The notes beneath the pieces were generated by a model, which saw nothing but the letters and a program-made list of their open reading frames with translations, was not told the DNA's origin and searched no databases. From Polytrichum commune (Eukaryota; Streptophyta; Polytrichopsida; Polytrichales; Polytrichaceae): a stretch of DNA of 64,000 bases. Shown piece by piece: positions 2,010-54,801 of the stretch. The translations under genes and the position numbers were made by a program. The stretch covers positions 48,508,758 through 48,572,757 of the forward strand of contig OX485805.1 of NCBI GenBank assembly GCA_950295325.1. Direction: 5' to 3'. Numbering within the stretch: position 1 is the first letter of the stretch; each line of letters opens with the position of its first letter.

Positions 2010-2332
2010 AAGTAGGCTAGTTTGAACGCATCGTTCAACGCGGCTCCCCCAATCAAGATGTACATAGAGCATTGTATATAATATAATCACCATTTTTGAC
2101 TCCTATATACTTGTATATTGTGTTTGAATGTATTTTGTATGCTCTTGTATCCCTTGTATCCCTTGTTGCACCCCCTCCAAAATGAATCAAATGCTTTTGT
2201 GTTTGCACCGAGAACGCTCGTTTCCTTAATGCTTCGTTTGGACATAGCATGACATAAGTCGCCCCCGTTTTCTCTCGCTCGTATCCGCAGGGCTCGGAGC
2301 ATAGCGTAGCGGCTCCCCGACGCTCTTCCCCA

Positions 2333-3103
2333 ATGAGCGGAGAGGGCAGCGCGGCGGCGCCCCCGGTTTTACCCGCCCCGCCCCCGCTGCCGAAGAAACG
2401 ATTCCTGGTGTTAGACCTGAACGGGGTCCTCGTCCAATGCGTTCATTGCCCTAGGACCCCCACGGTGCCCTTTTGCAAGCCCGAGGACGCTAATTACGAC
2501 GGGCCGCCCACGTTCATAAAGAGCAAACTAGTTCACCTCCGCCCGTGGCTTCGGACCTTCCTCCAGATCGCCCAACAACGATGGTGGGTGGTCGTGTGGA
2601 GCTCCATGACGGCCGAGAACACCAATGCGGTCGTGGAGTTCATCTTCAAGGGCATCGAGCCCCCCTGCATGGTCCTAGCACAGGAAGCCTGTAGAATATT
2701 GTACACACAGGACGGCAAAGTCGTCAAAAAACCAAACAACCCCGCTTCCCCCCAATACCTCAAGGTCTTGAAGCCCATTTTTTGGGACCAGCGACCGTCC
2801 TTGATAGGCGTCCCCTACGACGTCCGCCCCACCCGCGAGAACACGCTCATGGTGGACGACAGCGCCGCAAAGAACATGTTGAACCCGACGGCCAACTTCA
2901 TAGTGTGCCCTACGTGGACGGTCGAGAAGGTCCGGGACCGATTTTTGTTAGACCTTAGTAAATACCTCCAGGCGCTCTGGGGAAGCGGACTTCCCGTAAA
3001 CAATTTTGTTAGGAATAATCCCATAGGCGAGAGATACTTGGATCCACGAGACCATTTGTACAGAGAGTTGTTATCTCACGCGAAATTTAACAAGCTCATT
3101 TGA
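2333..3103 (+). CDS. FCP1/NIF-type HAD-superfamily phosphatase-like protein
   Basis: An uninterrupted 256-codon frame starts at ATG 2333. After a Pro/Ala-rich N-terminus it shows KKRFLVLDLNGVLV (residues about 21-34), the position of the HAD catalytic DxDxT/V motif of NLI-interacting-factor/FCP1 phosphatases, then RPWLRTFL, WWVVVWSSMTAENT (motif II, with Ser-Ser-Met) and NTLMVDDSAAKNMLNP (motif III DD). These four blocks in order define the NIF domain, known for dephosphorylating Ser in RNA polymerase II tails or other targets. The second Asp of DxD is Asn (DLN). Plant NIF-like proteins with LDLNG are known, but loss of the acid/base Asp makes activity doubtful. There is no intron in the frame. 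GC-rich codon use matches its neighbours at 1-4032 and differs from the rest of the window. Confidence 0.85.
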   Translation: MSGEGSAAAPPVLPAPPPLPKKRFLVLDLNGVLVQCVHCPRTPTVPFCKPEDANYDGPPTFIKSKLVHLRPWLRTFLQIAQQRWWVVVWSSMTAENTNAVVEFIFKGIEPPCMVLAQEACRILYTQDGKVVKKPNNPASPQYLKVLKPIFWDQRPSLIGVPYDVRPTRENTLMVDDSAAKNMLNPTANFIVCPTWTVEKVRDRFLLDLSKYLQALWGSGLPVNNFVRNNPIGERYLDPRDHLYRELLSHAKFNKLI

Positions 3104-5841: not shown

Positions 5842-5854
5842 TCTTCGATCTGAA
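5842..5854. repeat. Target-site duplication, left copy
   Basis: TCTTCGATCTGAA is identical to 18126-18138. The two copies bracket the 12.3-kb non-LTR element. Confidence 0.85.
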
Positions 5855-5875
5855 GAAGAAGAAGAAGAAAAACTT

Positions 5876-5894
5876 CGGTCTCCGGAGGAGACCG
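5876..5894 (-). other. 3'-terminal hairpin of the retrotransposon
   Basis: CGGTCTCC, loop GGA, GGAGACCG: a perfect 8-bp stem just inside the (GAA)n/(TTC)n terminal tract at 5855-5870. The related copy has it at 27897-27914 with changes, and the fragment at 25793-25894 has a different stem (CCCT/AGGG) in the same place. Such 3' structures can be recognised by the element's reverse transcriptase; that role is inferred. Confidence 0.65.
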
Positions 5895-6132
5895 ACGTGA
5901 ATTAAGTGTCTGTTCGATCCGCCCCCAATCCGATGCCCACAGGACAAAGGTATGGAAGTACAGATCTACTCCTCCCTTTCGAGAGTAGACACTATAGTCA
6001 CCAATCACCAGTAACAAGGACCATAATGGTTAGTTTTTAGGTATTATTAATATGTGTGTGGCCATCCATTCTCTAGTGCATTGTTAGTGGGTGGAGTGGA
6101 GTGGCTTAGTTGTTAGGGCTTTATAGTTCTAT

Positions 6133-7015
6133 CTATGGGGGGTCTAATGATTGGGGAAGCGGTTGGTGGTTTTCTATTCTTCTTTTGTGGAGGAGGATAG
6201 CCATGGCATATTTTATAGTGATAGTATTGATATTTTTAAAGGTGTTTTTAATGGTAAGCATAGGTATTTTGAATTTATTTTCGAGTGATTTCATTGATGG
6301 GATGTATGTAGTGGCTCTGGCGCCTGCAGTGATTATAATAAGGGGGTCATCTTTCCATCCTCTGGCAGCAATACTGTCTATTAATGGTCTGTATTTACTA
6401 TTTTTTGCTTCGATTGTTTCTGGTGTGAATCTGTCATTACAGTATGTGAATTCGATGAATTGTATGGTGAGGTTGGGGTCTATGTCTGTGGGGGGGGGCA
6501 TTTTGGTATGGTAATCCTCGAACACAAAGGATATCAGGTCTAAATCTAGAGTTACAATGGCATCTTTGTGTACCGCATGTGCAAGGGAGTAGCCAATTGG
6601 GAACGGTGTTTTCTTGTGGTGTGTTATTGAAGGTGCCGGCATTCATGAGAGTATAACATCGAGATTTTTCGGATGACATTAATAGTTTCCTGATTTCCCA
6701 TACTGCTTTGTTGTGTCTTTTGACATGAAGTGAATGTATGTGTTGTTGCTTACAAGTAAGTAGTACATGTAACCATGTATCCGGTTCGTATGAATTGCAA
6801 ATGGGGCACGTAATAGATGGATATGTTTGCCTACCAAAGAACAGTTGTTTTGGAGCATTACCCATATAAGTTCCAGTTCGGAATTTGATGAGGCATGATT
6901 TTTGTTTATCTGTGATTTCCGGGTTTTCCCAAAAATCATTAGAAAGTTCTTTGTCTATATCTGCATTTCCTGTCCATTTGTAAGTGTTAGGGGTTTGTGT
7001 GGCCATGTTTTCCAA
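6133..7015 (-). pseudogene. Retrotransposon ORF2, C-terminal part: CCHC knuckle and PD-(D/E)XK-like (REL) endonuclease
   Basis: On the minus strand from 7015 the frame shows RTGTYMG, then CPIC-x9-H-x4-C (CCHC; the R2-type REL domain has CX2-3CX7-8HX4C), then RFRPDILCV (Arg-Pro-Asp). The frame breaks at a run of G near 6489-6496 and resumes in the second frame with LTIQFIEFTYCND (conserved Glu), EAKNSKY (Lys) and IITAGARATT. RPD...E...K..KY is the pattern of the restriction-like endonuclease of R2/NeSL/Dualen elements. The second copy (27881-29603) conserves the same residues across its own break (KPDILCV, QFIEFTYCND, RKTTKY), which supports real selection on this domain in the family. In a living element it would nick target DNA to prime reverse transcription. 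Confidence 0.75.
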
Positions 7016-7042
7016 GTTATTTTCCCTATCATATTTTATAAT

Positions 7043-8578
7043 TTATTTTTCTAGGAATCTAACGGGGCCTTTATCAGGAATGTCCGTCATTGAGGCCCAG
7101 ACATCCTTTTGGTAATAGTATGGGGTAGCATGGGCATGTTCATATGGGTGAATGGCAATTCTGTGGTCTAGTTCTAGGCCTTCTTTTGCCAATTTATCTG
7201 CTTGTTCGTTGCCGTCAATATTGACGTGTGCTCTTACTTTGTATAGTGTGATTGGTTGTGTCCGATTTTGAAGTAGTTGTACCATGGTGGCGAGGGTGAT
7301 TTGATCTGGGTGGCTATTATGCAGTGTGGGGTGTTTAATTTGTGTGTTAAGTAAATATAATACATTTAGACTGTCGGTAAATATGTGTGCGGGTTCATTT
7401 GGGTATAGTGTATTAATGATTCTTAATGTTTTATGAATGGCTATCATTTCTGCTCTTAATATGTTTTGGTGTCCATGGAGTCTTTTGGAGATGTTAAGGC
7501 CTTTAGGGCTATAGATACCGTACCCGGTTCTTTCTCTTCGCCATACTCCAGGGTTAATTTCTTTGGGTTTCATAAAGGAACCATCTGTATAGTAGCTGAA
7601 TTGAGGGTGAAATTTTAGTGGTAAGTTTGTTTGGTAATTTGGGAGTTGTGGGATAGGTATGTTATTGTTTGCGGGTGCGTTTGGATATTTTGATTTAGCC
7701 CATTTTTTGCTAGGATTAACGGCGGTATTTGAGGGGGTGGGTGGTGCAGTTTGTGTATGAATTTGTAATATTTGAAGGTTATTCGCTATGTCTATTAGTT
7801 GATTCATTTGTTCGTAGGTGCCGATATGGTTGTTTTGGTGGTGGATGCAGAATATTCGTAGTGTTGATACTTCTTTTCTCGTGCTGTTGAGTTCAGGAGG
7901 AATTGTAGGTTCTTCGTATATGATGGTATCTGCTGCAAAGTGGGCAATGATGTGTGTATCCGGGAATGGGCCGGTGTATGGGTTAAAGTTGTGGTACCAG
8001 TCAATATCCTTTGAGATAAGTAAAGTGATTGTATTGGGGTCATTTTTGGCCGCAATACGGGCCCAGTGGATGGCTTGTTGTAAGTCTGTTGCGCTATGGG
8101 GGTGGGCATATCCAATTCCCTTCCATTTTTGGTCAAACGCGTTTCCTAAAGATCCAAATATTCTATCCCTAGAGAATGGTGAGTAGAATTGGGTAAATTG
8201 TGTAGGGCATGTTACTGGGGATGAGAAGTATGAGTGGTTGATGTTAAATGATGTTATTAGGAAATCTAGTATTGGGGTTGGTATTGTATATTGGGCACGT
8301 TTAAGTGGGTCATTTTTAGGAATACGGTATTTATATCTCTGGTATAGCCAGACGATTTCGGTTTCGAATGATTGGGTAGGTGGTTCTAGGCTATGTGGGG
8401 TATTTTTAGCTTGGTGATACTGTTTCCATAACCACAGTAATCTAGTTTTTGGGATGGTCATGAGGTGCCGGCCATTGTCTTCGTATATATGAGCTACGTC
8501 AAATTGTGTTTGGATAGTGTTATTATTTGTTTCGATGTCACTCTCTGGGTTGCATTCATTAATGGAAATATGTGCCAA
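7043..8578 (-). pseudogene. Retrotransposon ORF2: methyltransferase-like segment and RNase H domain
   Basis: A 511-codon open stretch. Residues about 330-470 are a ribonuclease H: YYTDGSF (first Asp), LRAEMIAIHKTL (Glu), HIFTDSLNVLYLL (Asp), VRAHVNIDGNEQADKLAKEG (His and last Asp). All four acidic residues are present. Upstream, residues about 105-240 contain a block (FYSPFSRDRIFGSLGNAF, YAHPHS, WARIAAKN, ITLLISKDIDWY) whose order resembles a Dam-type adenine-methyltransferase fold, but the expected (D/N)PP(Y/F) is HPHS. That second assignment is tentative. RNase H would remove the RNA strand after first-strand synthesis. The segment follows the thumb/connection region and precedes the CCHC/REL part. 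Confidence 0.8.
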
Positions 8579-8906
8579 TGGAATTATTGTGGCAGGGATA
8601 ACGTATCTATCATCTTTATGTTGTTCTGTGGAGAAGTAGGCATTAATAATGTTTGAGAAGTGTTTGTGTTGCCTTTTCGTATAATATTGGGTAAGTAGTG
8701 CGGTGTTGTGGCGATTAGTATTGGCGTCACAATAGGGGAATAAATCTCTTTGGGTACGCCATTTGTTGTATGTGTTATTATCTGGTGTAGTCCATTGGCA
8801 TAGGTATGATGTGTCTGTTCTTTTTATCCCATTAGGATCTATGAGTTGTCGTTGTTTGTGATCGAGTATTGTATGTATAGGGAATTGACGGGGGTTGTTA
8901 AGAATG

Positions 8907-9761
8907 TTATTGGGAGGGGGGTAGGTGGGGGATAGGGGGGTTCGGGGGGTGTACAGGAGGAGTTGGGTGTTGAGGTAGAATATTATGGTTTATTATAATG
9001 TAATCATTCTTTAGGGTTCGTGGGGGGTAGTGGTGTAGACATGGTAGGTTGCATTCTTGGTGGCAGGTAGGGTGATAGAATAGTTGATTCGCGATGTTTA
9101 ATGCGCTCTTGACAAGTTTTGTAGGATTGGAGTGATATATTTTAAAGTCGTCTGGGTTCATTAATGTGGTGCCGTTAGGCATAATTATTTGTTCTAATTT
9201 GATTATATTGTGCAGTAGAAGTTTTTGTAGTAGTTTAAGTGAAGTGTTGGGGTTCAGGCCTTGTAGATTTTGTGCTTCTTTCAGCCATGCGGTTTCGAGT
9301 AGGGATGAGTTTAAAAGGAAGCTATCTATTGTGCTTTTCAGGTGGACTCCTGCTTCATGTTTGAGTAGGAATAACGTTCGGGTGATAGGTGATCTAACGC
9401 AGTGATGATATTTAATACGGGTTATTTCTTTGGAGCCTCCGAATTTTGCAAGTATAAATTGTGTCAAGCCGTAATAGATTTTGCCGAGTCTCCCTTTATC
9501 GTTGAGGGCGTTTTGTAGTTGTTCTCCGATACAATGTAAGTAGGCATTTTGCAGTGAGAATGCTTCAATTCCGAATAGATCGTGTGGGAGTTGTGTGGCA
9601 ATATTGGGTGTACTTTTAGGTAATCCGCATATTGTTTTATGTAGTGCTATAATCTTTTTATCAAGTTTTTTTATAGCCGGAATAGAGTATGGTACTGCGT
9701 AAAAGCTGTAGGCTATTCCAGCACGTATCACTGCATCTGCCATGTTGATTTTTTGTTTCAT
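8907..9761 (-). pseudogene. Retrotransposon ORF2: region between RT and RNase H
   Basis: A 284-codon frame overlapping the end of the RT frame by one ATG (9758-9761), i.e. a frameshift between them. It contains KINMADAVIRAGIAYSFYAVPYS and KLDKKIIALHKTICGLPKST, the conserved post-RT stretch of LINE proteins where a helix follows the thumb. It ends in a Pro/His-rich tract. The 8579-8906 stretch before the RNase H frame is closed in all minus-strand frames here and is probably eroded coding sequence. Confidence 0.6.
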
Positions 9762-11313
9762 GGTGGCTGGGCATGCTCAAGGGCTTGACATTGTTTGATA
9801 ACTTTAGCTGTAGTGGTATTTATCTGTGTTTTCCATTTAAGTGAAAGCGCGAGATTTATTCCAAGATAAGTGTATGGTTCGTGTTGGTTTAAAACTGGTA
9901 GCGGTTGGTTTCTATAATTTATATTAGTAGATTGGATCAAGGCTTTGAATGTTATGGGATTCATTTTAGATTTATTAGGGCATCCTGTCACTGCACATTT
10001 GGGTATTCCTAGGTCCATTCCTGCCCATTCGCAGAATTTGTCTAATTTGTTTAGTTGTATTTGTAATGATTGTAATTTGTTAGCAATCGCTGCTAAGTCG
10101 TCGGCATATGCTGCGGATGAGATTTTGACTTTAGATGTTCCGAAGGTGTATCCATTATTACCATATTGTAGCCATCTTAGGAGAGGTTCTAAGAATATTA
10201 AAAATAAGTATGGACTTAAAGTGTCTCCTTGTATTGTACCTCTTTGAATGGGTATAGGTAGAGTTTTACCAAAGTATTCTCCAAGGTATATAGTAGAGGA
10301 TTGTGAGTATATATTTCCGATGAGGTTTATGGCGTCGGTTGGGTATCCAAGGTCTTTCATTATGGCTAAGAGTCTAGCGTGGTCAATGGAACCGAAGGCG
10401 TTTTTGAAGTCAATGTAAAGGATATATATATATATATATCTTGGTTTGTATGTCTAGCGTCTTCTAGTGCTGCAATGAGGAGTTGAAGTTGTCTGGATGT
10501 TCCTCTTTCTGCCCTGAATTATTCTTGGCTATCGTGCATTATTTGGTATCTTTCACCGTAAGCGGAAAGAATGGAGGTTAGTGTGCTTGTGTATAGTTTG
10601 TATATGGTGTTGGCTAGTGCAATGGGTCTATGATTAGTAAGTTGTGATGGATCACCTTTCTTATATAGTAAAATTGTTAGGCTAGTTTTCCACGATGCGG
10701 GAATTTGTTTTTGTTTGTAACAGTGTTTGAAGAATAAAAATAGTAATTTGTGAAAACGTGGGGGCATATTTTTTAGGATTGAATTAGGGATTTTGTTTGG
10801 TCCAGGAGCTTTATTATTTCCTAGGTTTTTAAGGCAGAAGTCGTATGTTTCTTGGTCAAAATATGTGTATAAGGGGATTTGGGGTTCTCCACGTTGGTCA
10901 ATCGTGAGTCCTTCTAAGTCATGCCATGGGTATTGCCTGACTCCACATGTGTAGTGTGGTGGGTGAATGTTTTGATAGTAACATGTGGGTACTGTTGGAC
11001 GGTTGGTGATGGATTGTTGAATGTATATTTCTTGTGTCATTTCTTCCGGGTTAGTTAGGATATTATTTTGTCTATCTGTGATGGAGTCGAGGGGTGAGGT
11101 GTCGGAATGTTTGAAGACTTTCCTATTTATCTTTTTGGGATTTTTTTCATACATTTGGCGATATTTTGATACAGCTTTTAGGATACAATTTTTGGTATAT
11201 TTTGTGGTGATTTTTCTGGCTTCTTTGTTGGCAGTTTTAGCGATAGCAGCTATGGCGTTAATCCATTCATTATGGGGGGGTGGTTGTTGTAGGTGGATGT
11301 GGGATTTGCACAT
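9758..11313 (-). pseudogene. Retrotransposon ORF2: reverse transcriptase
   Basis: Two frames, 11313-10519 and 10360-9758. The first has KAPGPNKIPNSILK (RT block 0/1), TILLYKKGDPSQLTNHRPIAL and YKLYTSTLTSIL. The second has QRGTIQGDTLSPYLFLIFLEPL and the catalytic YADD (SAAYADDLAAIAN) and continues into YTYLGINLALSLKW. They are separated by an in-frame TAA next to 10519, where related enzymes have a Q-x-GFR-type motif, and by a (TA)n tract at about 10424-10438 sitting inside the conserved IDFKNAF block. Motif content and order are typical of LINE reverse transcriptases. These two lesions alone inactivate the copy. Confidence 0.9.
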
Positions 11314-13703
11314 GTTGGTGGTTTCGGATTTCGTTTAAGATGGGGTGAGTTTGCCAGTGTGGGTTGTTATTTGCAATGTATATAGTTCTTCTAATGAGAT
11401 GGTATGTGTCGAGGTGTTTTTTCCATTCTTTGGATAGTTTCCGTGGTAGAAAGCCGCCTTGTTGTCTTGTTCTGTTCGTAAGGGTTGGTATTGGGTCTAC
11501 TTTGCAAGTTTTTTCAATAGATACTGAGATTTTCCCTACAATGTTATCTAATGCTATACATGTTTCTTGCCATTGATCAGGGGTGAGGTGGTTGTGGTTC
11601 TCTAGTAAGTTGGTCAGTTCGTTAAGTTGTGTGGAATTTGCTTCAAAAAATTCTATATTAAATTTTTCTAAGTTTTCTGGTGGGATTGGGTTTAGTATTC
11701 TAGTTGGTATGATGTTTGCGGGGGGTGGTGGTCTTGCTATAAGCGTGTTCTGGGGTATGTGTAAGATTACTGGATAGTGGTCTGAGTTAAGATTCATGTT
11801 AGTAATTGTAGTAGAGGTAAATCTACTACTGTTCGGTGAGTTGATATAAAAACCATCTATAAGGCTAGTAGATGTGTAATTATAACCTCCTTGTCTGGAA
11901 ATGTTAGTGTTTGTTGGAATATATTCTAGGTTGAGGGTTGTAGTGAAGTTTTTCCATTGGATGTCTTCTTCTCGTGGTGGTGTATTATTGTTGTTGTTTT
12001 TTTCTACCCGTAAGTGCGATATCTCTGTTAAAATCACCACCTAAGATGTGCATATGGTTTGGGTGTGTAGTTATTTGGTTAGTGATTGCTGTTTTTAGGT
12101 AGGGGATGAGATGGATGTCATCTAAGTGTGTAGGCATATACATGTGTATGATTATCCATGGTACAAGAGGGTGGTTGTTTATTTTTATTATTTGTAAATA
12201 AGGGGAGATGTTTACCGGCGTTGGGATCTTAGTGACGTTTCCAGGAAATGCGTATTTGTTGTGAATGAGTGTGAGTAGGCCACCTCTTCCGGGCGTATAA
12301 GGCATTCTTTGTTGTATGCATCTTGTGAGGGCGTGTGTGTTGTTGAAAATGAGTTTGTATTCGGGAAATATGTTCTGTATGTATTTTGTGAATTTTGTTG
12401 CTGTTATTTTGGTTTCTTGGATATTTATTATTGTTGTGTTTCCAAGGGAGTGGTTTATTAAGCTTTGTAGATTTGGTAAGGCTGTGTTAAGCGATGAGGC
12501 ATTCCAGGTTATTATGTTTGTCTCGTGGTTAGTGTTTGGGGTGGTTCTTGGTGTTGGTGTGGGGATGTTTGGAAGTGGAGGTGGGTGTGAGTATTCGTTA
12601 ATGTTTTCTAAGCACCGGAGTGATTCGGTAATTAATTTAACCGGGAGAAAGGGAAATTTCCTTTGAAGTGTGTTTTGTGTGGGTGGAGTCCCTTGGTTGT
12701 GAATAAATTTATATAGTTCTTTGTGTATAGAGTTTTTAGGGTGTATTATATCTTGGTTATTTTCAACAAATGTTGTGTATAGGTGTTGTGTTAGAATGTG
12801 TCGTTCAGGGGGGTTGTTAAGGTTGGCTAGTCTAATGATAAGTGTGTTGGTCCATATGTTGTTAAAGTGATAAATATGGGGTTGGGCTAGTATGTTATTG
12901 CAAGTATCTATTGAAGGGTTTATAGTGATGATTAAGGCATATAGTATGTGAGTTGATGGGGAGTAGCTTTGTGTTTGGATGTATTGATATAAATGTGGGT
13001 ACGAGACGGTTGTTTGGTGGTGTAGTGGGTGGTTATGTTTTAGTATGGGAGCGAATGTGCTTGCTATGTGTTGATACTCCGGTTGTAGTTTTATCGTGTT
13101 TGGAATAAAATATGTTTTGGCTATTTTTTTATGTGTAGCGGGGTGTGTGTGTAAAATATTAGGCATTGGTCCGGGGTTGGATTCTATATCTCCACATTGT
13201 AATAATGCTAGTTTATTGATGAAGTAGTATCCGTGAAGTTGGAGTATTTTCGGTTTTCGTTTATTTATTTTTTGATATTTAGTGTGTATGAATTTAGTTG
13301 TAGTGAAAAGGTTGGGTAAGGCGGGTGTTATTTTTTCTAGTTGTTGAGTTGGAAAGTGTGTGTTTGTGTTGTTTTTGGGTATGTGATTTGTTATTGTGTT
13401 AGTTATCCGGTAGTGTGTGAATTGGTATTTGTTTACAATATTGTGGCGAGGCAGGGAGGCCGAGGCCATTTTATTGTTGGTAAGTGCGAGCAATCCATTC
13501 TCCCCGGGTGTGTAAAGCCTTCGTTGAAGGTATTTTATATGTTTATTAATTTTTGTGGTATTTGTTTGATTATTACTTTTGACTTGTTTGGTAAGTGGTT
13601 TTGTTTTGATTTTTATTTGTATATTGGTTATTTGTGTTTTTATTGGAATACTATTAGGTATTAAGTTTATTTTCTTTACGTGTATTTGTATGGTATTTAG
13701 CAT
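11270..13703 (-). pseudogene. Retrotransposon ORF2 N-terminus: 2A-like peptide and APE endonuclease
   Basis: Frame 13703-11985 (572 codons) begins with a basic, Asn/Thr/Ile-rich leader. Near residue 175 it carries LALLQCGDIESNPGP (13168-13210), matching the 2A ribosome-skipping consensus D(V/I)ExNPGP with the preferred upstream LL..G. After about 190 residues of unrecognised helical sequence the APE domain starts: NIITWNASSL, then INIQETKI (catalytic Glu) and LGGDFNRDI (Asp, Asn). The frame then shifts near 12000 at a (TTG)n-T8 tract. The second frame, 12040-11270, finishes the fold with TSLIDGFYIN and LNSDHYPVIL (SDH motif). APE nicks target DNA in LINE retrotransposition. 2A sequences are known in other APE-type non-LTR elements, where they separate the ORF2 leader from the enzyme. 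Confidence 0.85.
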
Positions 13704-13911
13704 GCTCTTGTAGTATTTATGTTGTAGTTCATTGGTTTTTGTATTTGAGTATTTTTTGGTTTTGTGGTTATTTTTGTTTTGAATGATTTTTTTTTGGAAT
13801 TTAATTTTTCTATTGTGTTGGTGGTACTTATAAATACCTTATTTATGTTTTTAGTATTTAGATATACTGTTGTGGTTTTGTTGTGTGTTGCCGGGTCGTT
13901 TTTTACCTTAC

Positions 13912-15516
13912 CTAGTTTCCCGTGTCCATATTTCCTTCATCATGTCCTCCTTCCGAGTCTTTTGCCACGCTCTCGATGTAGTTGACTGTTGTGAGTAGTT
14001 GCTGCTTGAATATTGTGAGTTGAGCTGCTATAGATTTCATTGATTTGTCGGTGTACGTGGTTGCTCTACGGTATACAATCTCTTCTCTCTCTGCCAATTC
14101 CTTGCGTAATGTGGAAGTTTCTCCTTCCATCATTGTTTTCACCTCTTGTCTTGTTAGGCCTTTGCTAGGTGCATTCTCCAAAGCTTCCACGGTGTTTGCG
14201 AGTGCTGTGTTTACATCAGAGAATCCTAATATTGTTAACTCCTCTTGAGAAGGTGCGTTTATGCCATCCAAGCTCTTTGGGTGTGGGGTGAATTCTATAT
14301 ATTTACCAAGAAGTTTGGTATTTTTCTTTACAAACTTTTTGTAAATGGCAGCATTAAGACATTGTACATTGCAACTTCCCACATGCTTCCCGTTCTCAAT
14401 TTTAAAGAAGACATTTAACACATTTCTTTCACCCATGTATTTCTTTAATTCGTGTTCGATTATTTCTGTGTTTTTTACCTTGTTTAAGTTTTTTACTATT
14501 AGTATAAGGACATTTTTTCTTGCTTTGTCGTCTTCGGTTAATTTATCCCTTGAGGTAAATTTGGCTTCAAAAATTTCATTGTCAAGTGATATTTTATAAG
14601 TATTTATCTTTTTCGTTTGCTCGGGTGAGGTTGCCACCACCCAAGCAAACCCCATTTCTTTCTTTTTCTGGATATTTGTGATTTCATAATCGTATGTTCG
14701 ATCAAATCCCTCATGTACTACTTCTTCTAAAATATTATACCATTCTTTGCCTATTAGTGTATCGCTTGTGATTTTCACGGAGAGGAGGTTATTGAGAGCT
14801 AGTACGTCATAAGATTTACATATTTTTCCTCTCCATGGTTTCCCCTCTTCCAATGTGATGATAAAGGCCTTTGTCCCTTCAAGGAGGCTTTTAGCATCAA
14901 GGAATGGGTTTTTGAGGTGAGGTTTTATAATCCCACTTCACGTAGTAGATTTGTGAAAGCACATTATTGCTATAGGTTCTCCAATAAGCTCTCCGAGTTC
15001 TATGTCCATTTTTATTAGTCTTTCTTTTACCTTGTGCATGATTACATCCCGTTCCCATTTTTGTTCACCAAGTTCAAAATGTATTGATACTTGGTAATCA
15101 AAAGAATACCCGTTTTCATCAATTTCCACATCGAATGGAATTTGGGTTAGGTTGTAGTGTTGGCCTTCTTTCCCATCTTCCCTCTTGGATGGCCATTCTT
15201 TTTGAGGGACAAATGGGAAAGAAGGCCTAGCATTCTGCATTTCTTTGGCTTCATCAAAATCAATTTTCCTTTTCATTAATTCCCTTGTACTTTCCCCACT
15301 TTCCATTGGTTTTTCTTTTTGTTTGTTTAGAAGATTCAAAGCCTGAAAACCTAACCATAGAGAGGAGTATTTTGATCCTAAGTCTTTTTTGCTTTTAGCT
15401 TTCTTCTGAGTGGTGGTAACAATAGCAGAAGTGGTTCTTTTTTGAGAAGTGTGAATAATTTCATTTTCATCAACCACGCAAACATCCATGTTTCTTGTAG
15501 AGCTAGCTTCGGCCAT
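13912..15516 (-). pseudogene. Retrotransposon ORF1 (RRM-like, coiled-coil protein) with one in-frame TGA
   Basis: The frame begins at a Met at 15516 (MAEASSTRNMDVCVVDEN) and runs to TGA at 13912-13914, about 534 codons, interrupted only by TGA at 14938-14940, after which the same frame continues (SGIIKPHLKNPFLDAKSLLE). Open sequence extends upstream to 16140, but without ORF1-like character. Residues after the stop include NVLILIVKNLNKVK and HVGSCNVQCLN, spaced like the two RNP strands of an RRM, then a helical, charged stretch (TRQEVKTMMEGETSTLRKEL) likely to form a coiled coil. ORF1 proteins bind the element RNA. The TGA may be a CpG decay of an Arg codon or a readthrough stop; this copy cannot tell. 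It lies 209 bp upstream of ORF2. Confidence 0.7.
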
Positions 15517-18125
15517 TGATGTAGTCTTGTGTATAAAAGTATAAGGAGTATGTTTTTTAGAAAGAATTTGTACTAAAACATTCACACATTTTGTAGCATT
15601 TACTAAGATGTTACTTTTCTGTAAACCATAAAGAAGTTTGTTAAAGTGGTTTAAAGAGTTTTTTCTAAAGGTTTTTGTAGTTTTGAGTAAAGCATTACTC
15701 CTATAATCCTCATAACCACTATCTTCCCACCACTTAATTGGTGGGCCTAAGTGATAGTTGGTGGTAGAAAAGGAGTAGAGTTCATACATTCCAAGTGTAT
15801 ACAAGCATACATTCGGTGTGTGGCTATGTTTGTTATTGCTATGGTTTAAGTAATGTTTACTTTTGTTGTGAGAACAAAGGTAAACATTATATATATCACA
15901 ACTTACGAATTGGTTAGGTGTTGTATTTTTAAATGTGTTTTGGCAAGAGGTTTGTACAAAACATTCCCATGGGTTGTGTGAGTTGACAATGTGAGAGTTT
16001 TTCCAATATGGGGTGGCTAGTGATAGCCAAAGAATGAGAACAAGGTTGTTTATACATACAACCTTCATTCCTCTATCTATCCTAGCAAAGTCTAACAATT
16101 CTAAGTGCCTAATGCTACTATTGTGTGTGCCTATATGCAAAAATGAAATCTATGTGCAAGACTTACCTGGTTTTGATATCGCCTTCCTCCTGGGCAGCAA
16201 ACCTCCTGGTCACTCCAGCAGCTTCGGCAGCTCCAAAATGATCACGGCTCCAGCAGCGATGTGTCTTTTGCAGCTACCAGCAGCCTCTCAGTTAACGCAC
16301 ACTGAGCTTAGTTTACACACACCGAACTGGTTTACACTTCAGCAGAGAGTGTGTATTTGCTTTGGCAGTGGACCAACTCAGCAAATCAGCAGTCAAATCA
16401 GCAGTCAAATCAGCAGCTTCTTCTTCGAATTAACAGTCTTCAAATCGGCAGCTTCTGCTTCAAATCGATCTTTAACTTCCACACACCGAACTTGACTTGC
16501 GTAGAACGAAGATTTTACACTTAGCAACGAGTACTGATTCGAATCAGTATTTTCTTCGAATCAACGAGTACTTTCTTCGAATCACCAACTTCTTTCTTCG
16601 GAGCAGCAGCTACTTTCTTCGAAACAGCAACTACTTTCTTCGAATCACCAGCTTCTTTCTGCAGAGTAGCAGCTAGTTTCTTCGGCGCAGCAACTACTTT
16701 CTTCGAAGCAACAGCTACTTTCTTCGAATCAAAATCTACTTTCTTCGAATCACATCTACTTGCTTCGAATCAGCAACTTTTTCTTCAAGTTTATCAGCTT
16801 TTTTCTACAACTCCACAGCTTCTTTTTCGGATCAACAACTTCTTCTTTGAATCACCAGTTCTTCAGCAGCTCTTCCCATACAGCTCTTGGAGTAGAGGTG
16901 TACCACGAATCTGGCTCTTGTTTAATCTAGTAGCTTCGTCTCTTCAGCTCCAATCTACTACTGAAGCCTGCTGTGTCGCCTTATCTCGGTGGAGACGGCT
17001 AGTACTCTCCTCCGGGTTCGGGTAATTTAAGCAGCTCTGTATCTAGATCTCAGACTTCTCACCAGGTCGTTTCACAAATTTCCTACAGAGTCTGGACTTT
17101 CGACATTAGGGTCTTAACTGTACTCTCAAAATACCGCAATGTCTGGGCGGTGGCAAATAGGTTGTCCACTCCGCTTTCTTTCAATCTCTGGGTTTTTCAG
17201 CACTAAGATCTTAAGTATCTATCTTCAAAGCATCGATGGCTAAGCTGGTCTAATGTTACTCAATTTTGTGGGTTCCCTTCAGTCTCTTCCAAAATCTGGA
17301 CTTATAACTCTTGGGTACAATTGTGTATACTTAGAGAGACTTTGGACACTCAGTGGTAGCAGATCTCACAGAAATTTCGACACACATTTCCTACAAAAGT
17401 CAGGACTTGCAACACTAAGATCTCAACCTTGATTCACTAACAATCCTTGATAACAGTGTGTTTCGGAGCTTAATCCCACAGTAGGTTTCGACACAGATTT
17501 CAACCACCGTAGGTTTCGGTAAGTATTTCTGTGGCGGCTTCGGGATCTGGGGCGTCTTTGAATCGGCAGCGGAGAGAGCTCTCGGTGGCGGCTACAGTAT
17601 TAGGGACGTCCTCTCGGCAGCGATCGCGGTGTTCGGGGATGTCTTTAACAGCAGCATGCGTTCGACTCAGGAACAGATCGGTACTTCAGTCACGGGCGTA
17701 GTCAACAGGCGCTCAAGGGTGACCTCCGCGGCAGTGACAGTGTGTTTTCGGTGCTTCTGGTGCAGGTCAGGATCATCAGTTGCTTAGTCGTCTTCTTCAA
17801 CAACAACAAGGCACTCTTCTTCAGTGCAGATCAAGGTCGTCAGAGGCAGGCGTGTTGGTGTCGATTGTTTAGATGTGTGAATGGCTTCGGCAGGTCTTTT
17901 TTATGTTGTTGGTGTGAGTACTCACGGTGGTGGGTTTGGAGTAGGTTGCCCTTTCAGCTGCCGAAGAGGTGGGTGGCTAGGGAGGTTTCGAAAAAGGAGC
18001 AACATTGTTGCCGCTACAACTATTTTCGCTTCCCTAGCCTCCAACAGCCTTTCGGAGCTTCAAGGGCTTCGCCTATCCTCTTTCCCACTCCATTGCTCAC
18101 TCCATTCTCATGAGAGGACAGGTTG
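15517..18125 (-). promoter_or_regulatory. Retrotransposon 5' region
   Basis: About 2.6 kb upstream of ORF1, reaching the 5' duplication. 16380-16420 has three AAATCAGCAGTC units. 16540-16860 is a degenerate array of TTCTTCGAATCA/CTACTTTCTTCGAA units. No convincing protein is seen. By position it would carry the internal promoter of the element. Confidence 0.5.
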
Positions 18126-18138
18126 TCTTCGATCTGAA
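18126..18138. repeat. Target-site duplication, right copy
   Basis: TCTTCGATCTGAA, identical to 5842-5854. Confidence 0.85.
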
Positions 18139-20379
18139 ATAAAGATGTAGTGGAAACCAGTGTTTTTTTTTTTTTTTTTCAAAAGAAATGGGTCTCTACA
18201 TTGGCTCTTGGCCCATCCATTGGCTAGCTTCTTTGGCAATTTGAGTTGGCTTGAAGGAGCCCTAGCTGGCCACGTGGGATGACTTAACATATGGCGAATG
18301 CGACTAGATGTCATAGAAGGTTTGAGTATGTGGCGATATATAATTTTTTGGGGGCGAGTGTATGTGGCTATGTTTTGCCAACGTAGAGTTGAAATATGGC
18401 CCCCACTTCCTACGTTGTTGATGTAAATGTGGCTAATACAACCCAAAGTACATCAAAATTTGGCTACATCTAAGATTCAATGTACAAAAACTATTTGTTC
18501 CACGGCCCATGGGAAGAATGCTCAAAAATATGGCTACAGCCTATACATGCGAGGTATTCCTCCTCAAATACAAGGAGAGGGCCACAAGAACATGTCCCAT
18601 AACCCTTGTCCAAACCCCAATGAGCAGAAATAAAGGAAAAAAAAGACGGAGAAGGAGAAGGAGAAGGAGTTGGGCTTGGCTTGGCTTGGCTTGGCTTGGC
18701 TTGGCTTGGCTTGGCTTGGCTTGGCTTGGCTTGGCTTGGCTTGGCTTGGAAACAAGCCAAAGTTAAACAAAAAGTGCCCACCTGCAGAAACCTAGGCGCC
18801 CGGTGTGGAGGGAGTCTAAACTTGCCGGGGCCTGCCTCGTAGGACGGTGGGGACTTTTTGTTGGCAGGATAGGAGCAGAGCGGCGATGGAGAAGCACACA
18901 ACGGGCTTGGGGTGGCGATACGGGCGGCTGTGATTGAGCCGGGGGGTGGCCTCTAACACCGTGGTAACGGGGCCGGGTTGGCTACAATGCATGCCGCCCG
19001 ACCCGGTTTGAGGCTAACCCAACGGGCATTTTCAAAATAAACCATGTGTAAACATAGCATGGCCCTAACTAGTGTAGCAAAAAACATCTGTATAGCCAAG
19101 ATATAAAAACGTTGGTGGAAACATCACCATATGAGCCGTTTCTTGTGATATTTTGATGTACACTGTAGAGAAAATGGTTGAACCTTGTAATCTAGACTGG
19201 TGTCACAAACCCTTAATAAATTTACTTGCAAAAGTTATTGTATGCATCTTGTGTATCCTGGGGTGGAAGCCCATACATGTTTGCTAAAAGTGCTCTGTTT
19301 ACTCATTACTAGGAAGTGCACATTCCTAGGATAGCTGACCAACTTCAAAGCACAAGTATAACAGCACGCTATGATTTTTATTAAGGTGGGACACAACTTC
19401 AACAATTTTCTAGTTTCAATAAAACAAATATACGGCTCGTACTGTGTTTTCATTACATCTTTGTGTCAGATTGAAAGAGCAGCTCTCATCTCCAATTTCA
19501 AACATCTGAAAATATATTTCATGGTCACATTCTTTCTGAATACACTTTCATTTTTCTCTAGACTTTGAGGCCCATAAAGAATATTTCACATCTTTGAGAA
19601 ATTAGGTGATGAGAAGCACATCTGCCATTCAATAATGCCTTTGTCACATAACAGCTTGGAAGGACAACCAACCAATTTCCTCCTCAATGATGCACCTGCC
19701 TTTTCGCTCAAACAATATATATGGGGTAGGTAGAAATGTTGATATCGCTGCTCAAATGCAATCTTCAAGGTACGACCAAAAATAAAATCTTGTATCTATT
19801 TTAAAGTAGATTATGCACTGAAACAACTCATATCATCTTTGATGTTTTGTTGGAAGTTTTTTAGAGAATGTTCCCTGAATTTTAGTATGCCACGGTGAGA
19901 GAAGCACATGTTCAGAAACTAAGCTTACCAATCGCAAATTGCAATAAGGCACGGAATTGGATGATTGCATACTTTTTATTCACTTACTTTCTTTGATCGG
20001 ACCCCTATATTTGATTGGTGTGTTTTTTGGTTTTGGTGATAAAAACTACAAACATTGTAAAGACAAATATTTAAAGGATTGGATTATGTCTTTAATTTTA
20101 ATTAACTATTTTACACTCGATAGCGAACATAATAAGGAGGACCTATGTAATTAGGTAAGAAATCAACAACCATGAACTTTCGACAACTTTAAGTCCAATC
20201 TCTGATGTTTTGAATTTTAAGGGGAGGTCCGACTTTTGTTGATGCTTCATTGTAGATTTGCTAATACAACACAAGTTTTCATGTGTCAATCTAATGGGTA
20301 GAAGTTGGATAAGATAAAAAATACGCGATTAACACCTCACATACCTTAAACCAATGCTTGAGGTGATTGGCGAGTCTTT
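18139..20379. other. Gene-free interval with pentanucleotide satellite
   Basis: A T-run at about 18163-18179 follows the retrotransposon. 18673-18748 is about 15 copies of CTTGG/TTGGC with almost no variation. No host gene is recognised in the interval; short open frames look accidental. Confidence 0.7.
18673..18748. repeat. (CTTGG)n microsatellite
   Basis: About 15 perfect tandem five-base units; the preceding 18640-18670 is (GGAGAA)-rich. Confidence 0.95.
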
Positions 20380-27880: not shown

Positions 27881-29603
27881 GAAGAAGAAGAACTCTGGTC
27901 TCCGAAGGAGGCTGGAGTGAATAGAGTGTTTGTTTGTAGAACATCCTTGGCCACGCCCTAGGGCAATGGCATTAGATGTAGAACTATTTCATCCTTTGCA
28001 GGGAGTAGACACTATATTAGTAACTAATAATTGGTTAACCAACAACCGGTAGCATGCGACTGTTGTTAGTGGGGTACGTCTATCTAGTGTAGTGGCATTG
28101 TTTTACAGGGTAAAATGTATCTGGTTATAAGTTAGTTTATTTAGTTATACTAGGTTTTGAAGGTTTGTGATAGATTGTCAATTCTCTAGTCTTTGTTTAT
28201 GGACTAGTATTAAGTGTGCCTATTGTGTGGCAATTATGTTAATTTGTTGGAATGTGTTTATTTTTATTTTTATGAGAGGGAGTTTGAGTTTTGTTTCCAG
28301 GTTTTTCATTGATGGGATGTGTGTAGTGGCTCTTGCGCCTGTGACTAGTATCATGAGTGGGGCTACATTCCATCCCCTTGTTGTGATGTTGTTGATGAGC
28401 AGTTGGTATTTTGTGGTTTTCCTATCAAGGGTTTCTGCGGCAAATATGTCGTTACAGTATGTAAATTCTATGAATTGTATGGTGATTCATGTTGTAGGGG
28501 GCTTCTGGTGGGGGGTGGTTATATGGATGTCCTATGACGCATAGTATGTCTGGTTTAAACATGGCGTTGCAATGGCATCTCTGGGTGCCACATGTGCATG
28601 GCAATAGCCATGTTGGCACAATATTTTCTTGGGGTCGTTCGGTGTAGGTTCCCACATTCATAAGTGTATAGTGTCTACATATTTTATTTGACATAATTGC
28701 TTTATGTACTTCCCATACAACTTTGTTATGTTGTTTTGTTATAAGTGCATGAATGTGTTGTTGTTTGCATTTGAGTAGTACATGTAACCATGTATCTGCA
28801 TTTGATGAGTTGCAAATGGGGCACGTTTTTGATGGGTAAGCTTCTCTACCAAAGAAGAGCTGCTTCCGAGCGTGGCCCATGTGATGTCCCGTTCGGAATT
28901 TGATTAGACATGTTTTTTTGTTCATCCGTAATACTTGGATTTTTCCAAAAATTGTTTGATAATGTCTTGTCAATGTCCTTGTTTTCGAGCTACTTGTGTA
29001 GTTGGTGTGTTTGGTTAGCTATGACTTCTAAATTATGGTTTTTGTCATATTTTAGGACGTGTTTTCCAAGGTGTCGTATGGGGCCTTTGTCTGGTGTTTC
29101 TTGCATTGAGTGCCACCAATCTTTTTGGAGGTAGTATGGTGTAGGGTGTGCATGTTCATGTGGCATTGAGGGGGGTCTCTATGATCTAGTTTGCATCCTA
29201 ATTTGGCTAATGTGTCTGCTTGTTTATTGCCATTTATGTTAGCATGGGCTTTGACTTTATGGAGTGTGATGATTTGTGTGCGGGATTGTAGCATTGTGGT
29301 CATGGAATCAAGGATTTTTTTTTGTATGGGTGGCTATTATGTAGTGTGGGGTGTTGATTTGAGTGTTTAGTGAATATACGACATTAAGGCAATCCGTGAA
29401 GATATTAGTTGGTTCGTCACAATATGTGGTGGTTAGGAGTTGGAGAGTGTGGTGCATGGCCATCATTTCTGCTCATAGTATGTTTTGTAGCCCTGGTAGT
29501 CTTACTGCAATTTTTAGATTCTTTATAGAGTTATAGATACCATATCCTGCTTTTTTGCGTTTCCAATGTCCTTGAAATGTTTCTTTAGGTGGTTTGAATG
29601 ATC
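27881..29603 (-). mobile_element. 5'-truncated copy of the dual-endonuclease retrotransposon family
   Basis: On the minus strand it keeps the end of RNase H (VKAHANINGNKQADTLAKLG near 29230), the post-RNase H region, CPIC...WLHVLLKC, KPDILCV and, after a frame break near 28480-28510, QFIEFTYCND, RKTTKY and VTGARATT. It ends in the hairpin (GGTCTCC...GGAGGC) and GAAGAAGAAG. The 5' end stops inside the codons for the first RNase H Asp (GATCCAT near 29601). Short duplications CATTGAA (27874-27880, 29604-29610) flank it. It is about 1.7 kb long and diverged from the 12.3-kb copy, so it derives from a different source element. Confidence 0.85.
28452..28973 (-). pseudogene. CCHC knuckle and N-terminal REL fragment of the truncated copy
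   Basis: The frame shows KTCLIKFRTGHHMG, CPICNSSNADTWLHVLLKC and KPDILCVIGHPY, colinear with the 7015-6437 frame of the long copy. It ends before the QFIEFTYCND block, which continues in another frame at about 28475-28300. Confidence 0.8.
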
Positions 29604-29700
29604 CATTGAAAGCTTTGAAGGCTTCAATCTTGAACACTGACCACCCCTAGGTCTCTTCCTTCAGGGCCATAGCCAATTAAGGTGATACCAGTACAACACA

Positions 29701-53527: not shown

Positions 53528-54293
53528 GGCGGCCGCACACCCCCTTGCCGCGAAGACGACGTGAAGGTACCGCTTCGGCCGTGGACGTCGCCATTTCTCT
53601 GCCCCCCTGCAACTATAAGGTAAGACCTACACAATGGCACCAAGAGAAATGGTTTAGTCTTGGCTGCGGGGATGTAGAAGCGAGTGACAACGCAATAAGA
53701 CCGAATTAGGGTTTCATCGTTAATTGGGGGGGGGGGTGCTCATTGATTACTGATTAATTTTGTAGTCATACTAGTCCTCACAGACATATGACTGTCTATT
53801 TAGGGTCAGACTTGTGACTTGTTTGACTGCATGACTAAAGGTAGTCATATTTAGGACTACATGACTAAATCTAGTTAGATATAGGGACAAAGTGACCACA
53901 GGTAGTCATATCACCACTAGAATATGATGTCCAAATCAACAAGTAACCAACTATTTTTTGTTAAACTGTGTACGTCAATGACCATTTCAACAAAATTCTA
54001 ATATTTTGTTAATTTGAACAAAATGACTGTTCTTATTTCTGTTAGATTACGTACTGTACCTTTTCTTTGACAAATTAATGGGCTTTTAGATTAGGATATG
54101 CTGATGTGGCGATATTCAAAGGAAATAATTTTTTTATTTTATTTTTTGTATTCACAGAAAGGTATAAAGTTCTAACCTTGCACCACATGCGCTGATGTTT
54201 TTCATCCATCCATTTTTTTATTTTTTCCTAAGGTTTAATACCATTTGTATGGGAAGGATCATCAAAATATGAGAATGTGAACTTCTGAAAAAT

Positions 54294-54801
54294 TACATAA
54301 ATAGCGGTTTTTGCAAAAAACATACTCAGAGGCAAAATGTTTTTACATAAATAGCGGTTTTTGCAAAAAACAAACTCATAAGTAAAATGTTTTTACATAA
54401 ATAGCGGTTTTTGCAAAAAACATACTCAGAGGTATAATGTTTTTACATAAATAGCGGTTTTTGCAAAAAACATACTTAGAGGTAAAATATTTTTACATAA
54501 ATAGCGGTTTTAATTTGCAAAAAACATACTCAGAGGTAAAATGTTTTTACATAAATAGCAGTTTTAATTTGCAAAAAACATACTCAGAGGTAAAATGTTT
54601 TTACATAAATAACAGTTTTTGCAAAAAACATATTCAGAGGTATAATATTTTTACATAAATAACGGTTTTTGTAAAAAACATTCTCAGAGGTAAAATGTTT
54701 TTACATAAATAGCGGTTTTTGCAAAAAACATACTCAGATGTATAATGTTTTTACATAAATAACGGTTTTTGCAAAAAACATACTCAGAGGTATAATGTTT
54801 T
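54294..54801. repeat. Ten-copy 50-54-bp tandem array
   Basis: TACATAAATAGCGGTTTTTG recurs at 54294, 54344, 54394, 54444, 54494, 54548, 54602, 54652, 54702 and 54752, each followed by CAAAAAACATACTCAGAGGT. Two units carry a four-base TAAT-type insertion after the GGTTTT, giving the 54-base spacing. GTTTTTGCAAAAAAC inside each unit is nearly self-complementary. Confidence 0.95.

Follow-up and report, generated by a model that had tools for sequence, protein, structure and literature searches.

The window analysed here, i.e., 64,000 nucleotides of the moss Polytrichum commune (assembly GCA_950295325.1, contig OX485805.1, positions 48,508,758 to 48,572,757 of the forward strand), contains on its minus strand a retrotransposon without long terminal repeats (non-LTR retrotransposon, or long interspersed nuclear element, LINE). 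Its second open reading frame (ORF2) combines in one element an APE endonuclease and a C-terminal restriction-like endonuclease (REL) of the PD-(D/E)XK type, the activities of both being predicted. The copy is dead and very probably belongs to a family of LINEs with two endonucleases that is abundant in this moss; the family has probable ribosome skipping and two added parts, a chromatin-reader-like module and a pseudo-methyltransferase. The order within the family is ORF1, then ORF2 with one or more 2A motifs, APE, reverse transcriptase (RT), chromodomain-like module, PCIF1-like domain, RNase H and CCHC/PD-(D/E)XK, followed by a stem-loop and a microsatellite tail.

The 13-bp sequence TCTTCGATCTGAA is found on the plus strand of the window at 5842-5854 and at 18126-18138 and nowhere else on that strand, such that the element body extends exactly from 5855 to 18125. 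A 12.3-kb non-LTR retrotransposon inside an exact duplication had been proposed in a first-pass annotation of this DNA, and the flanking pair bears this out. The parts which that annotation had read in ORF2 are likewise present: the APE motifs ETK (within IQETK), GGDFNRD and SDHYPV on the minus strand, to which ITWN is to be added, an RT and an RNase H between the two nucleases, and the C-terminal arrangement CCHC-RPD-E-K..KY, for which CCHC, RHN, RPD, IEFTY and K..KY were found, with the same positions kept in relatives. It listed neither a 2A/StopGo motif nor a chromodomain-like module or a PCIF1-like domain. Domain coordinates in the window were determined by tblastn with the domains of relative B, a copy elsewhere in the same genome, as queries; they are scattered over three frames with stops. 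Because ORF1 contains an in-frame stop and ORF2 is split across several frames, the window copy is dead. The features are as follows:

5855-18125, minus strand: whole retrotransposon copy, degenerate (12,271 bp; bounded by the duplication; relatives elsewhere in the genome)
18126-18138: target-site duplication on the 5' side of the element (exact 13-bp match, TCTTCGATCTGAA)
13915-16107, minus strand: ORF1 (one in-frame stop at 14938; 44% identity to ORF1 of relative B)
13167-13193, minus strand: 2A/StopGo motif GDIESNPGP, preceded by LALLQC (supported by the genome-wide pattern)
11726-12521, minus strand: APE endonuclease domain (tblastn with relative B; frameshift near 12000)
9453-10929, minus strand: reverse transcriptase with YADD (PF00078, RVT_1, E=3e-13; frameshifts and one stop)
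8642-8890, minus strand: probable chromodomain-like module (75.9% to relative B)
7832-8431, minus strand: PCIF1/CAPAM-like domain, seemingly a pseudo-methyltransferase (PF12237, PCIF1_WW, E=2.7e-10; HPHS replaces NPPF)
7142-7621, minus strand: RNase H (PF00075, E=2.5e-14)
6136-7081, minus strand: CCHC finger and predicted PD-(D/E)XK restriction-like endonuclease (tblastn with relative B; one stop, one frameshift)
5873-5899, minus strand: 3'-terminal stem-loop ahead of the tail (fold -16.2 kcal/mol, z -3.42)
5855-5869, minus strand: (TTC)n tail, read in the sequence as in the first-pass annotation
5842-5854: target-site duplication on the 3' side of the element (exact 13-bp match, TCTTCGATCTGAA)

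The genome searched for relatives is the source of the window (408 Mb in 64 contigs). An Lhcb protein encoded in it reaches 461 and 459 bits against the PDB entries 8htu and 7xqp of the moss Physcomitrium, ahead of 8c29, the LHCII entry next in order (438 bits), which agrees with a moss and makes the land-plant host of the first-pass annotation likely; 9vfj, a longer chain of several domains, reaches 512 bits. In each search for relatives, the best candidates alone were scored. With the last 883 bp of the element, the best 40 of 1167 candidates, the window copy included, exhibited 91-100% DNA identity, so that the window element is a repeat and not a chance arrangement. With the RT protein, the best 150 of 1557 candidates were 83-100% identical, and with PCIF1_WW the best 150 of 697 candidates all exceeded the curated cut-off (150/150); no PCIF1_WW match was found in 14 control genomes. 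The first-pass annotation had suggested looking for other full copies; the genome contains at least 150 scored relatives, some of them with open ORF2 frames that exceed 2,600 codons. From stop to stop, these frames comprise 2924 codons in relative A, 2625 in B, 2663 in C, 2919 in D, 2372 in L009 and 2131 in L010, where a second frame continues beyond the first. In five of these six relatives (A, B, C, D and L009), the part from APE to REL lies inside one open frame.

This bears on the possibility of a chimera or nested insertion, by which an APE LINE would have come to lie beside an R2-like element. The window copy, broken in several frames, could be read in this way, but the single open frame of the five relatives, the comparable distances between 2A, RT and PCIF1 across many copies, and the one duplication pair enclosing all parts speak against it, and this explanation is rejected as extremely improbable. 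The PCIF1 queries and the REL queries each found a match in all 24 dual loci fetched. Eighteen loci (L016-L033) and D had been chosen by PCIF1, so that for these the REL match alone is independent; L009 and L010 had been chosen by RT alone, and both possess the PCIF1 part too, at scores below Pfam's cut-off.

The ORF2 sequences of relatives A and C, which lie on separate contigs, share 99.4% identity, an indication of recent activity. In relative B, the 12-bp repeat TGGCCCCATAGG follows directly after the tail and is found again upstream, which would give a body of 12.7 kb. Concerning the delimitation of the other copies, two observations count against the reading: a k-mer search found no target-site duplication for A, C, D, L009 and L010, the 5' ends of which may lie beyond the DNA fetched, and among the six relatives B alone was convincing, shorter chance matches having also turned up. 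Outside this genome, no relatives were found in viral_contigs, queried with the L009 RT and with alignment A2.

Two side observations concern further members. ORF1 of A and C (L001/L005) is 53% identical to that of L009 versus 30% to that of B, whereas ORF2 of A is 89% identical to that of B and 42% to that of L009; these opposite affinities suggest that families have exchanged the 5' half. In the window itself, another element of this kind, diverged from the first, has left a remnant at positions 28151-29607 (minus strand), with RNase H and CCHC-REL pieces of 49-62% protein identity over the longer matches.

The RT of the family is, judged by sequence, R2-like and not L1-like. Searched against solved structures, the RT of L009 matched R2 proteins at 1.3e-39 and had no L1 ORF2p match at E<=0.05; the control RT of L012, an L1-like LINE of the same genome, matched L1 ORF2p at 7.5e-59 and R2 at 1.3e-14. 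A maximum-likelihood tree was calculated from the RTs of nine dual elements, five L1-like LINEs of the genome, two R2 elements, one RTE-like fragment and two group II introns. The dual RTs constitute a clade of their own, separated from all others with a support of 99.9/100 and situated outside the group of L1-like LINEs (100/100) plus the RTE-like fragment (89.3/78). A grouping with plant L1 or RTE, which according to the first-pass annotation would have spoken against its reading, was thus found neither for L1 nor for the one RTE-like fragment tested. Two features of the tree limit this placement: it lacks algal Dualen elements, and R2 joins the L1-like/RTE-like group at a weak 70.1/66 with a long branch as root, which makes the branching of R2 relative to the dual RTs tentative.

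An ordinary plant L1 LINE, the C-terminal CCHC/RPD of which would be due to chance or to a finger of zf-RVT type, might be expected from the composition of plant genomes, which hold mostly L1 and RTE LINEs (PMC3747384, PMC9033089); in one of them, plant LINEs are listed as L1 and RTE only (PMC9033089). The L1-like LINEs of the same genome also carry CCHC motifs, but the five of them studied (L011-L015) match none of the REL or PCIF1 queries, the RT of the dual family is nearest to R2, the tree keeps the dual (99.9/100) and L1-like (100/100) groups apart, and the REL fold matches R2. The L1 explanation is therefore rejected as highly improbable.

Concerning the two endonucleases, APE is weak in the window copy (PF03372, Exo_endo_phos, E=0.011); in the one frame of L009, PF14529 (Exo_endo_phos_2) is matched at 9.7e-8, together with RVT_1 at 1.4e-32 and RNase_H at 1.3e-14. 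An alignment of 17 REL rows exhibits the invariant positions C100, C103, H113, C118, R130-H131-N132, D191, E218, K234, K237 and Y238. An AlphaFold2 model of REL (mean predicted local distance difference test score, pLDDT, 66.3) was run through Foldseek, and the top seven matches were all R2 proteins (E 3.9e-6 to 9.7e-3); at the ranks below (E>=0.056) there followed two spliceosome chains, cap-snatching nucleases, and restriction or nicking enzymes. Besides the fold, co-linear weak sequence pieces back the assignment. On the other side, the sequence profile of REL found nothing at E<=1 among the PDB sequences. Of the earlier claim that the C-terminal domain is a PD-(D/E)XK nuclease, the fold match to R2, and weakly to other PD-(D/E)XK nucleases, thus stands, and a match by sequence profile was not obtained.

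By its anatomy, the family is of the Dualen/RandI type, and its membership in the algal clade is a candidate placement. Kojima and Fujiwara reportedly described Dualen in 2005 with a cysteine protease, which may not be a defining trait; none was found in Pfam scans of ORF1 and ORF2 pieces, in which ORF1 of B was scanned in part and ORF1 of L009 was fetched in part. The Dualen/RandI reading of the first-pass annotation is thus supported by the two nucleases, by RT and RNase H in one ORF and by the non-poly(A) tail; the protease was not found in the pieces scanned. Similar to the green algal Dualen/RandI elements are the combination of APE and PD-(D/E)XK in one element (PMC3636483, PMC4640811), the RNase H (PMC4640811) and the tails, which in the window family are likewise non-poly(A) repeats, as reported for eight of eight tabulated algal RandI families (PMC3747384). 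Different are the moss host and the 2A motifs, chromodomain-like and PCIF1-like parts found here, the algal elements being compared by description only.

With R2, the family shares the RT, nearest by sequence among solved structures, and a C-terminal CCHC plus REL of matching fold, whereas APE and RNase H are additional in the window family. Two traits of R2 were not found: REL is not the only nuclease, APE being present as well, and there is no sign of a fixed target in the 28S ribosomal DNA, the duplications of the window copy (13 bp) and of relative B (12 bp) being unrelated and the flanks of the copies being without a common target by eye.

Ends made up of a stem-loop plus repeats are known from LINEs with stringent template choice (PMC3747384). 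In all copies in which the end was read (window, A, B, C, D, L009, L010 and L025), a stem-loop is followed by a repeat tail, i.e., (TTC)n in the window and L025, (TATC)n in A to D, and (TTTTC)n in L009 and L010; no shared sequence in the 3' flanks was found by eye among these same eight. All seven stem-loops folded were more stable than their shuffled versions on average (z -2.45 to -5.96), that of C having been left out as near-identical to that of A. A consensus pattern of the stem-loop had no match in the window and missed even the known stem-loop there, and is hence too strict.

2A motifs are also known from other LINEs (L1Tc of Trypanosoma; elements of sea urchin and others), where they are placed ahead of the endonuclease; the present family differs in its plant host, its dual nuclease and its up to three 2A-like motifs per frame. 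The variants read are ALLQCGDIESNPGP in the window, CGDIEPNPGP in B, SGDIETNPGP in D, GGDIKPNPGP in A and C, and CGDIHPNPGP in L009; L010 has two (HGDIELNPGP and SGDIEINPGP). The pattern (D/G/C/N)(V/I)ExNPGP is matched exactly in the window, B, D and L010. In the whole genome, a DNA pattern for GDIxxNPGP had 420 matches, versus 0 for the reversed control; 255 of the 420 are canonical, with E as the key residue, and here too the control gave 0. Of the 32 RT copies scored on contig 1, for which 93 motifs were listed, 23 have a 2A motif 1.9-3.4 kb upstream, and among 14 neighbouring pairs less than 1 kb apart 13 are in frame, these copies being related and so not independent events. Arrays in one open frame comprise three motifs in L039 and L040 and two in L041, L042, L043 and L010. 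The residues ahead of the motif are rich in L and end in CG or SG in many copies, matching known 2A contexts (A/S/C, then G), and in GG or HG in others.

The 2A motifs of ORF2 probably drive ribosome skipping. Two points count against this, namely the K at the key position in A and C and the absence of the exact pattern upstream of nine of the 32 RT copies scored for contig 1. That the motifs are a conserved peptide without ribosome skipping is regarded as unlikely: some families have K or Q instead of E, and the activity of E14Q is cited as 26-56% (PMC12846837), but 255 of the 420 motifs are canonical, the upstream residues are rich in L and often end in CG/SG, and H at the key position, as found in L009, retains more than 95% activity (PMC12846837). 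Natural use of 2A is described for viruses and for trypanosome and animal elements (PMC4981915), and a StopGo survey of 2026 records no natural use among plant viruses (PMC12846837).

By eye, units of the form ASAYRPRH...(A/I)PNLFT are repeated ahead of 2A at the N-terminus of ORF2 of B (L003/L004). Also by eye, the stretch RRLYTPGENGLLALTNNK at 13470-13523 of the window resembles the APE stretch RMPYTPGRGGLLTLIHNK.

The domain following the chromodomain-like module is, as judged from sequence and modelled fold, homologous to PCIF1/CAPAM, the cap m6Am methyltransferase. PF12237 matches all 12 aligned members (best 1.9e-12). The profile of the 12-row alignment A3 found zebrafish PCIF1 (6irx) at 0.0044 and human PCIF1 at 0.27, and its core alone gave 0.0037 and 0.16. 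The top two Foldseek matches of the model are both human PCIF1 (4.4e-6 and 2.0e-5, over 257 and 256 columns). This homology has to be weighed against the scores of L009 and L010 for PF12237 (27.4 and 26.1 bits, Pfam cut-off 31.1) and the low confidence of the PCIF1 part of the model (whole-model mean pLDDT 52.6).

NPPF, named as the catalytic motif of PCIF1 (PMC8868631), is missing in 14 of 14 aligned rows, where HPHN, HPHT, HPHS, HPPN, HPKD and FPTD are found instead; ANPPF of human PCIF1 aligns with AHPH of the element, with N opposite H. The ratio of nonsynonymous to synonymous substitutions (dN/dS) of the domain is 0.09, 0.13, 0.10, 0.14 and 0.06 in five pairs, the sixth being saturated and so undefined. 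It ranges from 0.07 to 0.12 in APE, from 0.05 to 0.09 in RT, from 0.08 to 0.12 in REL and from 0.24 to 0.38 in the spacer after the PCIF1-like domain. These values were calculated with our own Nei-Gojobori-type script; for several pairs dS approaches saturation, which lessens their weight. Low dN/dS together with the loss of NPPF suggests that the domain is kept under constraint without the catalytic motif, i.e., as a pseudo-methyltransferase, seemingly disabled. It is quite unlikely that the domain still acts as an adenine methyltransferase, on RNA or DNA of the element, by means of a different motif: the purifying selection and the PCIF1 fold match would suit such an enzyme, but NPPF is missing throughout, its substitute is variable, and the catalytic N of the human protein aligns with H.

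The module situated between RT and RNase H is likely chromodomain-like, a reading to which weak scores, position and model contribute together. Besides PCIF1, the A3 profile found at E<=1 CDYL-type chromodomains alone (0.16-0.51), and the module was modelled as three strands and a long helix (block pLDDT about 68-85). Its dN/dS ranges from 0.03 to 0.23. Several points tell against the assignment: PF00385 (Chromo) matches six of 12 members, weakly (best E=0.019; 12.8 bits, curated cut-off 25.1), a chromodomain is absent from the top 50 Foldseek rows of the model containing PCIF1, and dN/dS reaches 0.48 once (pair B-D).

The combination of two nucleases, 2A motifs, a putative chromatin reader and a seemingly disabled cap methyltransferase is not described in the literature searched. 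Among the matches listed there, judged by titles and the beginnings of abstracts, none concerned PCIF1 in a retrotransposon, a chromodomain in a LINE, Dualen in a land plant or a plant LINE with 2A. A 2016 paper by Iyer reportedly deals with adenine methyltransferases of mobile elements. Similar to the present case, orchid Ty3/Gypsy elements are plant retrotransposons with a recruited m6A-related enzyme, the AlkB demethylase, but these are LTR elements with an active eraser, whereas a LINE with a motif-less homologue of a writer is found here (PMC9289625). Chromoviruses likewise contain a chromodomain in a retroelement polyprotein; in these LTR elements, it is located at the end of the integrase (PMC11288735, PMC5348765), whereas in this LINE the chromodomain-like module lies between RT and RNase H.

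Some further observations concern other sequences. In the window, an open frame at 2258-3103 (plus strand) resembles by eye a phosphatase domain of FCP1/SCP type (LDLNGVLV), a perfect (GGCTT) array of 15.4 copies lies at 18673-18749, about 0.5 kb from the element, and a 50-bp tandem repeat of ten copies with 90% matches occupies 54293-54801. In the same genome, contig C5 (1751760-1846160) contains fourteen LHC-type matches within 95 kb, each with one open frame and an equal Pfam score of 177.1 bits. A record labelled as an Alicyclobacillus plasmid (L034; NZ_CP104070.1, 19715-22176) contains an RTE-like LINE fragment with stops and looks like eukaryotic DNA inside a bacterial assembly.

Target-primed reverse transcription is established LINE biology, from which it follows that the element RNA would be copied in this manner, with synthesis by the RT beginning at the 3' stem-loop and repeat tail. 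Of the two nucleases, one would nick the target for priming, and cleavage of the second strand may fall to the other. At each 2A, skipping by the ribosome would separate the N-terminal part or parts of ORF2 from the enzyme, and the chromodomain-like module may steer the complex to marked chromatin. The PCIF1-like domain might bind without catalysis, its simplest ligand being the element RNA at its capped 5' end, and such cap binding would favour the element's own or full-length RNAs as templates. We tentatively consider it possible, though less likely than not, that the 2A arrays, as natural StopGo recoding in plants, make several ORF2 proteins and that the captured cap-m6Am methyltransferase is now a non-catalytic reader of capped RNA, which together with the chromodomain would couple the choice of template to integration guided by chromatin.

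Dual-endonuclease LINEs are cited as a link between REL-type and APE-type LINEs (PMC4640811). With the many copies present here, some of them nearly identical, it becomes possible to test how the two nucleases share their work. If skipping holds true, the family would constitute a native plant case of 2A, with arrays. That a PCIF1 domain is under constraint with its catalytic motif gone speaks for binding as a role of this fold and for a connection of cap chemistry with retrotransposition.

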